A stretch of DNA of 44,181 nt, from positions 1 to 44,181 of the forward strand of contig JAUWGW010000012.1 in the NCBI GenBank assembly GCA_030606215.1. Reading direction: 5' to 3'. The DNA is from a bacterium. GTDB lineage: Bacteria > NPL-UPA2 > JAUVJM01. Positions 3,438-4,928 of the stretch are shown in pieces. A program made the translations under genes and the position numbers. How positions within the stretch are numbered: the first letter of the stretch is position 1; the number at the start of each line of letters is the position of its first letter. The notes below the pieces were generated by a model. The model saw only the letters and a program-made list of their open reading frames with translations, had not been told where the DNA came from and ran no database searches.

Positions 3438-3514
3438 GCCCACGTAGCTCAGTTTGGTAGAGCACGGCATTCGTAATGCTGAGGCCGGGGGTTCGAAGCC
3501 CTCCGTGGGCTCCA
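3438..3514 (+). tRNA. tRNA-Thr (anticodon CGT)
   Basis: A complete 77-nt cloverleaf: acceptor arms GCCCACG (from 3438) and CGTGGGC (to 3510), D-arm AGCTC...GAGC, anticodon stem CGGCA/TGCTG with loop TTCGTAA, T-arm GGGGGTTCGAAGCCCTC, discriminator T and encoded CCA at 3512-3514. The anticodon CGT reads ACG, hence threonine. Its 3' end faces the 3' end of tRNA-Gln (minus strand) across the small AT-rich island. Confidence 0.95.
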
Positions 3515-3698: not shown

Positions 3699-3739
3699 TT
3701 TACACTACTAAAATTAAATATTATAATATTGTAGTGTAA
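3699..3739 (+). promoter_or_regulatory. promoter inside a spaced palindrome (operator copy 1)
   Basis: TTTACA (3699-3704), 17 bases, TATAAT (3722-3727) is a near-consensus promoter for the two-gene cassette. It is bracketed by TTACACTAC (3700-3708) and its exact inverted copy GTAGTGTAA (3731-3739), 22 bases apart. The left arm covers the -35 and the right arm covers the expected transcription start, as expected for an operator. A GGAG ribosome site (3740-3743) follows at the right distance from the ATG at 3751. Confidence 0.7.
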
Positions 3740-3750
3740 GGAGATTTGAA

Positions 3751-4041
3751 ATGGAAGTTCTAAAGGGAATACTAAACGAAAGTAAAGACTACTATAAAAA
3801 GGAACAAAAAGAATTAAATAAAGAATTATCTAAATTGCCAAAAGGCAGTATTAAAAAAAGAAAATTTGGCAATGGATTCTACTATTATCTACAACATAGA
3901 GAGGGCGAAAAAGTTATTCATGATTATTTGGGCAAATCTGAACCGAAAGAACTCATCAAAAAAATAAAGAGACGCAAAGCATTAGAAAAGGAATTAAAGA
4001 AAGTCAAGGAATCCCTCAAATTACTTTTAAAAGCAAAATGA
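3751..4041 (+). CDS. small basic protein, likely partner of the nucleotidyltransferase
   Basis: A 96-residue, lysine-rich protein. The N-terminal half is helical and charged, followed by GSIKKRKFGNGFYYYLQHREGEK (about residues 31-53), a small beta unit (YYYLQ..REG.K...Y.G) that recurs in short DNA-associated proteins and antitoxin-like partners, and then a long basic helix (residues 70-96) with coiled-coil character. It overlaps the next gene by four bases (ATGA), starts behind a good GGAG site, and its promoter is embedded in a palindrome. I infer, without proof, that it is the DNA-binding, autoregulating half of a two-gene toxin-antitoxin-like module. The region is visibly more AT-rich than its neighbours, which suggests transfer. 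Confidence 0.7.
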   Translation: MEVLKGILNESKDYYKKEQKELNKELSKLPKGSIKKRKFGNGFYYYLQHREGEKVIHDYLGKSEPKELIKKIKRRKALEKELKKVKESLKLLLKAK

Positions 4042-4724
4042 TAAAAGTTGTAAAAGATATTTTGAAGATTTTTGATGAAAACGAATTATGGGAAGAAGGC
4101 ATTGAATTAATAGGTAGCTGGTGCTTTCTATTGTATCAGAAACATTTTAAAGTAAAAAAATACCCATTGCGAACTACCGATATAGACTTTCTTATTCCTT
4201 TTCCCTATAAAGGGAAAACCAATATAGACCTTACCAAACAATTTGAGCAAATAGGCTTTAGACTAGGTTTTAATAGTGATGGTTCTTTTTATCTCCGGAG
4301 TGCTGAAATAAAAATTGAGTTTTTATCACCTGAAAAAGGGCCTGGAACAGACAAAGCATTTGAAATAAAAAAGCTATCTTTAAAAACAACACCATTACGA
4401 TTTTTAGATATATTATCGAAAGACAAAGTTATTGTAAAAGAAGGCAATTTAGATATTTCTATTCCTTCCCCTCTTAACTTTTGCCTACATAAACTACTTA
4501 TAGCACAACGAAGAAAAAAGGAGCCCAAAAAATTGAATGATATAGAGCAAGCTGTTTATACTCTTGAAGCTGTTGATCTGGAACAGTTTAAAAATGAATA
4601 TGATAAATTATTTAAGAAATCAAAGAGGTATATCATGCGAAGTTTGGAAGAAGCCAGAGAACTAATACCACTTCAAGAGAATATCATAAGCAAAACTATC
4701 ATTACACTACAAAATCAAAAATGA
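4038..4724 (+). CDS. nucleotidyltransferase of the GSU2403/AbiEii-like kind
   Basis: A 228-residue protein with the minimal polymerase-beta nucleotidyltransferase signature: GSW (about residues 26-28) followed by RTTDIDFLIPFP (about 45-56), whose D-x-D would hold the metal ions. The later region (PSPLNFCLHKLLIAQRRKK) resembles the helical part of GSU2403-family proteins. Relatives act as toxin halves of type IV or MNT-type toxin-antitoxin systems or transfer nucleotides to RNA or protein; which applies here is unknown. It is co-translated with the preceding small gene. Its last codons and its stop (TGA, 4722-4724) lie inside the second copy of the TTACACTAC palindrome, so the gene end is part of the repeated module. 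It is AT-rich compared with the flanking housekeeping genes. Confidence 0.75.
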   Translation: MIKVVKDILKIFDENELWEEGIELIGSWCFLLYQKHFKVKKYPLRTTDIDFLIPFPYKGKTNIDLTKQFEQIGFRLGFNSDGSFYLRSAEIKIEFLSPEKGPGTDKAFEIKKLSLKTTPLRFLDILSKDKVIVKEGNLDISIPSPLNFCLHKLLIAQRRKKEPKKLNDIEQAVYTLEAVDLEQFKNEYDKLFKKSKRYIMRSLEEARELIPLQENIISKTIITLQNQK

Positions 4725-4741
4725 GCGCAAATGTAGTGTAA
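4702..4741. repeat. spaced palindrome (operator copy 2)
   Basis: TTACACTAC (4702-4710), 22 bases, GTAGTGTAA (4733-4741): same arms and same spacing as the copy at 3700-3739, although the 22 bases between differ. It overlaps the 3' end of the nucleotidyltransferase gene and lies 21 bases before the recombinase remnant. No clear promoter is visible inside this copy. Confidence 0.75.
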
Positions 4742-4762: not shown

Positions 4763-4819
4763 ATTAAGTATCTCATTTACGCAAGAAAATCTACTGATGA
4801 GGAAGATAAGCAAATTCTC
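4763..4819 (+). pseudogene. N-terminal remnant of a large serine recombinase
   Basis: Read from ATT at 4763 the sequence gives KYLIYARKSTDEEDKQIL, the typical opening of large serine recombinases (Y-x-R-x-S with the catalytic serine, then TDEEDKQ). A fair ribosome site (AGGAG, about 4750-4754) lies upstream, so ATT probably replaces a lost ATG. The match ends at about 4819; the frame then runs through unrelated codons into tRNA-Gln, so only about 19 residues remain. This is a scar of an integrated element next to the 3' end of tRNA-Gln. Too short to be active. Identification rests on recognition of the N-terminal motif only. Confidence 0.6.
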
Positions 4820-4854
4820 TTTTCTATTTCAAAAAAACTGCCTTATGCGATAAC

Positions 4855-4928
4855 TGGCTGGGGCGGGAGGATTCGAACCTCCGATCCAGGCTCCAAAGGC
4901 CTGTGTCTTACCGCTTGACGACGCCCCA
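4855..4928 (-). tRNA. tRNA-Gln (anticodon TTG)
   Basis: A complete 74-nt cloverleaf on the minus strand: acceptor TGGGGCG/CGCCCCA, anticodon stem CAGGC/GCCTG around loop CTTTGGA (anticodon TTG, reads CAA), T-arm GGAGGTTCGAATCCTCC, encoded CCA at the 3' end (4855-4857). It lies four bases after the spoVG stop, so it is probably cut from the ispE-spoVG transcript. In many bacteria ispE is followed by tRNA-Gln and then prs; prs is missing here and the recombinase scar lies in its place. Confidence 0.95.

Follow-up and report, generated by a model that had tools for sequence, protein, structure and literature searches.

Two palindromes of identical geometry bracket a two-gene nucleotidyltransferase cassette in the 44,181-nucleotide stretch of bacterial DNA analysed in this study (hereafter the window), and the question raised by the locus is what such a matched pair represents: the operators of a protein encoded between them, the ends of a mobile cassette, control sites of a neighbouring recombinase, or a coincidence of sequence. 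The cassette lies between a tRNA-Thr (CGT) gene on its left (3438-3514, forward strand) and a tRNA-Gln (TTG) gene on its right (4855-4928, reverse strand), both predicted with ARAGORN. It consists of an ORF for a small basic protein of 96 amino acids (3751-4041, forward strand), which is proposed to be an antitoxin-like autorepressor, and a gene for a nucleotidyltransferase (NTase) of 228 amino acids (4038-4724, forward strand), which is assigned to PF12281 (GSU2403 family) and bears the motif GSW...DID...E. From the comparative sequence evidence presented below, we consider it probable that the palindromes are operators of the first gene product, through which the small-protein/NTase operon would repress itself.

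Palindromes of the window and their distribution

In the window, a pattern search recovered TTACACTAC-N22-GTAGTGTAA as an exact match at 3700-3739 (P1; arms 3700-3708 and 3731-3739) and again at 4702-4741 (P2; arms 4702-4710 and 4733-4741), confirming the equal arms, spacing and positions reported in the preliminary description. P1 contains a promoter-like sequence on the forward strand, TTTACA-17-TATAAT (3699-3727), which agrees with the consensus at 11 of 12 positions and bears out the near-perfect promoter that had been noted there; the palindrome covers the -35 box, the -10 box and the expected transcription start, and sites of like geometry lie upstream of homologs of the small gene. P2 overlaps the end of the second gene, as was also described: its left arm codes for ITLQ, and the site overlaps the stop codon of the NTase gene. 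Across 18 loci, the conserved arms of the second copy measured 10 bp (TTACACTACA/TGTAGTGTAA) and the interior was unconserved, which refines the earlier view that selection acts on the arms and not on the interior.

A pattern scan of 84,980 genomes for the TTACACTAC palindrome with a spacer of N21-23 yielded 69 loci, most of them in Omnitrophota and the others in Treponema, Aquificota, deltaproteobacteria, Elusimicrobia and further groups. A homolog of the small gene was located nearby in about three quarters of these loci (53/69); nearly all of these homologs begin right after a palindrome, and most are also accompanied by an NTase gene, i.e., homologous cassettes elsewhere do have the palindrome. 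The spacer was 22 bp in most Omnitrophota, 21 bp in Aquificota and several deltaproteobacteria, and 23 bp in Treponema. The exact motif was present in 15 of 285 Omnitrophota genomes, with at most one pair in each, and its genome-wide occurrence was far above chance. In the genome to which the window belongs (1.52 Mb, spacers N10-40), no copy was found beyond the two in the window.

Short palindromes arise by chance and the second copy overlaps coding sequence, so the pair might be taken for a coincidence or a structural artefact, namely two chance palindromes or RNA hairpins. However, when up to three mismatches were allowed, two copies were found in the window against 0.01 expected, none of 100 shuffled sequences held two copies, and the reversed control pattern occurred in 0 of the 285 Omnitrophota genomes, against the 15 with the motif. 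In addition, a constant spacing of 21-23 bp is unexpected for hairpin loops, and AT-rich stems with a 22-base loop would make poor terminators, none of which was detected at the palindromes. The survey already refutes the chance and hairpin candidates, and the probability that we would still assign to them is negligible.

Exact N22 palindromes without the small gene were also observed on viral contigs (L003, L008, L015, L018, L019 and L020), where N22 was commoner than other spacings; one viral contig has a pair of such sites (L015 and L024) with similar neighbouring genes. The viral contigs with the N22 motif were rejected as carriers of the module, as the small gene was found in none of them and several represent one repeated coding sequence in related viruses. 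Carriage by phages or plasmids was rejected both for the small protein, which had no relative in phages or viral contigs and one weak plasmid match, and for the NTase, which had distant relatives on rhizobial plasmids (named GSU2403 family nucleotidyltransferase) and none in phages. As a separate observation, an Aquificota module (L032) is followed by an array of ~108-bp tandem repeats, 75-80% alike, which extends from 336 to 1530 bp after the P1+1100 point.

Arms, spacing and the cassette proteins

The small protein (alignment A1) was then used for a survey blind to the palindrome, in which 60 of 270 Omnitrophota genomes proved to have a homolog. Of 39 small-gene homologs, 27 were preceded, at a distance of no more than 150 bp, by an exact TTA-type 9-bp inverted repeat with N21-23, against 0.02 expected from dinucleotide shuffles. 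Homologs outside the TTACACTAC clade have palindromes of like geometry with other arms (TTACCTAAC, TTACCCAAC, TTACCATAC, TTACCAAAC and TTAACTAAC); seven different arm sequences were encountered in this survey, with a spacer of 22 bp in 31 of 32 cases. In the other-arm relatives, the -10 box lies between the arms and TTGACA stands right before the left arm, and in the cases read the promoter was within or overlapping the 9-N22-9 site.

One genome (G381) harbors both arm classes, each beside its own homolog (TTACACTAC at L203 and TTACCATAC at L208), which ties the arm to the protein rather than to the host. On the small-protein tree, the arm core changes 9 times (shuffled labels: mean 19.5, minimum 16) and the spacing 8 times (shuffled labels: mean 22.3, minimum 18); this tree of 79 small proteins was built from few alignment columns, many of its forks are weak, and some of its members had been chosen for TTACACTAC. 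As both arm and spacing follow the tree of the protein, an operator of the small protein is the best interpretation of the palindrome; most simply, the small protein would bind the arms, with site and protein evolving in concert. The proposal in the preliminary description that a protein encoded in the cassette binds both arms is likewise supported by these comparisons, in which the geometry tracks the homologs of the 96-amino-acid protein across phyla. No palindrome was present upstream of two homologs within the TTACACTAC clade (L191 and L196); these are also without an NTase gene, possibly representing a second use of the fold.

The model of the 96-amino-acid protein (pLDDT 92.9) consists of a helix, a three-stranded beta-sheet and a second helix, the sheet being compact and the flanking helices long. 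No known DNA-binding protein matched it significantly in structure; the weak matches include an integrase arm-type domain (E 0.45-1). No Pfam family scored above its cut-off for this protein, with DUF6788 (PF20586) reaching 15.8 bits against a cut-off of 27.2, and DUF6788 was also a weak match in 10 of 42 small-protein homologs. The NTase matched PF12281 at 79.4 bits (curated cut-off 26.3; E 4.8e-22). Its residues S27, W28, D48 and D50 are invariant across homologs, and G26 and E94 nearly so; a catalytic-type pattern, GS(W)...DxD with an additional acidic residue, is kept in the family of the window NTase. The best structural matches of the NTase model (pLDDT 94.1) were 5uvd, the MenT1 toxin (Foldseek, E 1e-4) and ANT(2''), and the fold, as modeled, is MenT1/ANT(2'')-like.

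At locus L057 (2620-3621, reverse strand), the small protein and the NTase are fused in one continuous ORF of 334 codons, which suggests a joint function of the two. Among 49 loci with room to judge, 14 had a broken or absent NTase gene and a small gene that was still open. A small gene that outlasts its NTase is what would be expected of a toxin and its antitoxin, although it is no proof of such a pair, and ordinary decay could have the same result. The literature searched contained no functional paper on PF12281/NTP_transf_8 or DUF6788; a mention of GSU2403 was found in connection with IHF in Geobacter, without a link to an operator or partner protein.

The second site, recombinases and cassette borders

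The operators of this family are arranged in two ways. Other-arm relatives have two tandem operators within the promoter, at about -118 and -60 as counted from the small domain (~58 bp apart), and no palindrome at the far end; the TTACACTAC clade in the protein survey has one operator in the promoter and a second ~945-960 bp downstream, over the stop codon of the NTase gene. In some TTACACTAC loci (Treponema, Clostridia and deltaproteobacteria), two tandem promoter sites and no P2 were observed. In 18 units the left arm of P2 is always in the same frame, while the interior is free and the position of the stop codon varies. The Leu codon in this arm is CTA in 18 of 18 genes, compared to 7.3% of the Leu codons elsewhere in the same genes, and the Thr codon is ACA in 14 of 14, compared to 23% of the Thr codons elsewhere. 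Judged by this codon usage, P2 is under selection at the DNA level.

Downstream of P2, the window contains a remnant of the N-terminus of a large serine recombinase (~20 codons; 4763-4822, forward strand), the expected start codon of which reads ATC. A gap of ~35 bp separates the end of the remnant from the tRNA-Gln gene, whose 3' end faces it. Its peptide IKYLIYARKSTDEEDKQIL (4763-4819) matches the N-terminus of ORFs of ~500-580 codons in Paceibacterota, with matches in 74 of 192 genomes and best identities of 68-78% over ~20 residues; the N-termini of these ORFs (such as MIKYLIYCRKSTEEEERQILSIEAQL) look like the resolvase-type start of a serine recombinase. The recombinase remnant that had been noted after copy 2 is thus substantiated by a match of ~20 residues; Pfam and PDB searches with the 27-residue remnant gave no match, the query being too short.

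Intact recombinases are found beside the module in integrated elements. In G043 (L090) and G041 (L064), the module is located inside an element integrated in an hflC-like gene, in the order hflC-like gene (3' end restored), P1-module-P2, serine recombinase (PF00239 and PF07508) and displaced gene end. The displaced end begins at the same codon in both loci, and related genomes have the hflC-like/thioredoxin neighborhood without the module (empty sites in the same family). L088 no longer has the recombinase, and its displaced end is incomplete, with the break 2 bp after P2. These loci (L090 3000-6522, L064 1-6264 and L088 6000-8000) show a very small serine-recombinase integrative element in the 3' part of the hflC-like gene. 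L090 and L064 share the layout of serine-recombinase elements that restore the 3' end of the host gene, but L090 differs in being very small (~3 kb) and carrying the module, and the window in holding a remnant only. The window fits the picture of module, P2 and recombinase remnant, and its module presumably arrived with such an element. The palindromes were rejected as att half-sites of the serine recombinase, as the target in L064 and L090 lies inside the hflC-like gene, away from P1 and P2; integron cassettes were rejected as well, because the attC-like direct repeats around L041, L057 and L088 are fragments of the interrupted host gene.

In the preliminary description, P2 was noted to sit just before the recombinase remnant, and the regulator was suggested to have once controlled the recombinase as well. 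In a stronger form, P2 would mainly let the cassette regulator control the recombinase of the carrier element, tying integration and excision to the state of the module, and a solitary P2 would be a leftover. The intact serine recombinase of the Omnitrophota element at L090 does start 24 bp after P2, and the remnant in the window starts ~21 bp after it; as these two recombinases look like different subfamilies, the P2-recombinase arrangement may have originated, or been maintained, on more than one occasion. However, a downstream recombinase was present only in L064/L079, L090 and the window among the loci checked, and in L064/L079 it is separated from P2 by 3.3 kb. Moreover, P2 is kept in 18 units with 0-2 mismatches and non-random codons, and 12 intact recombinases of Paceibacterota related to that of the window lack a palindrome of this kind in their upstream region. 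The suggestion is partly supported, by L090 and not by most P2 loci, which are without a recombinase; control of the recombinase as the main role of P2 is, in our view, very unlikely.

The borders of the units invite another explanation, also named in the preliminary description, in which P1 and P2 are the ends of a discrete mobile cassette, cut and joined by an enzyme acting in trans (e.g., the serine recombinase of the host element), and any operator role is secondary or coincidental. DNA similarity between units is confined to the stretch from the outer edge of P1 to that of P2, pairs that are 87-90% identical have differing immediate flanks at P2 (L064, L088 and L090), the downstream sequence of L088 switches 2 bp after P2, and internally deleted copies (L052 and L060) retain both ends. 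An unrelated gene pair, DUF5674 plus a 94-amino-acid gene, stands behind a P1-like promoter half in three Omnitrophota genomes (L212 60-820 in G174, L210 1940-2620 in G277 and L211 1170-1870 in G155). This pair is followed by an exact P2 in L212, the right half of which is a 21-bp inverted copy of the left half of P1, and by a degenerate P2-like site in L211; none was noticed in L210. The DUF5674 pairs suggest either exchange of gene pairs between palindrome ends or promoter capture. The patchy distribution (15 of 285 Omnitrophota genomes) would also suit a mobile cassette.

Nevertheless, each genome searched had at most one P1/P2 unit, no target-site duplication was seen by eye at the P1/P2 borders in the flanks of ~22 units, and the unit contains no transposase, with only the small protein and the NTase encoded between P1 and P2. 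In the other-arm relatives, the two palindromes stand together in the promoter, and the far end has none. An operon with terminal operators also ends, functionally, at these same borders, which accounts for most of the border pattern, and the insertion site in the hflC-like gene that L064, L088 and L090 share is attributable to the serine recombinase element. We consider a discrete mobile cassette of this kind unlikely. A combined explanation would be that the operators double as the ends of a modular cassette, the pair of 40-bp sites repressing the module and also marking the borders for exchange or movement of the gene pair. Such a double role would account for a second site at the 3' end, for the exactness of the borders and for the similar ends of the DUF5674 cassettes; to us it seems unlikely. 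Separately, the sequences flanking the unit at L046 and L092 (~90 and ~250 bp) are present in many copies in genomes of the same genus, in some cases adjoining one another, and the unit there appears to be inserted into a family of repeats.

Operator model and relation to known operons

In the preferred reading, with the palindromes as operators of the small protein, a dimer of this protein would place its two three-stranded beta-sheets on the two arms, spanning the approximately three helical turns that separate them. The bound protein would cover the promoter and shut off the small-protein/NTase operon, an autorepression as in AbiE/MenAT-type operons. The NTase would be a toxin-like effector, and the small protein would be both its antitoxin and the repressor. 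The second operator would be auxiliary: from ~1 kb downstream, P2 could loop to P1, which is a proposal only, or stop read-through into the downstream sequence. The P2 of the window would once have preceded a serine recombinase gene, presumably that of an integrated element, now reduced to ~20 codons.

In the type IV toxin-antitoxin system AbiE (AbiEi/AbiEii), inverted repeats in the promoter are bound by the antitoxin, resulting in negative autoregulation (PMC7319586, PMC3985639). The module described here is similar in being bicistronic, with the regulator/antitoxin gene first and the NTase gene second, and in having inverted repeats that overlap the operon promoter. However, the AbiE toxin belongs to DUF1814 and its antitoxin to COG5340, whereas PF12281 and a 96-amino-acid helix/beta-sheet/helix partner are combined here; the repeat is of the form 9-N22-9, and in this clade the NTase gene has the second site at its 3' end. 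By sequence, the window NTase was assigned by Pfam to PF12281 only and not to DUF1814 (AbiEii/MenT), and its partner, with 96 amino acids arranged as helix, three strands and helix, is not a two-domain antitoxin of the COG5340 type.

In the MenAT system of M. tuberculosis (MenT1, Rv2827c-Rv2826c), the Rv2827c promoter contains two tandem sets of inverted repeats (PMC7319586), which resemble the tandem operators of the TTACCTAAC-type relatives. The likeness of the window NTase to MenT1 is at the level of the fold (E 1e-4), as the protein families differ by sequence; for MenT, tRNA modification has been shown (PMC10435456). The window NTase and the GSU2403 family (PF12281, NTP_transf_8) are the same protein family (4.8e-22). 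By analogy, the module may work like AbiE/MenAT operons without belonging to either by sequence.

An operator placed within the last codons of a toxin-like gene is an unusual arrangement that is worth explaining. The module design, with matching changes of the docking sequence, is repeated in many little-known bacteria and seems to be undescribed, and the regulator family is widespread and apparently absent from the literature searched. As the arm letters and the spacing change with the protein, the binding site of this regulator family may be readable directly from the genome, and the PF12281/GSU2403 nucleotidyltransferases gain a candidate partner and a toxin-antitoxin-like setting.
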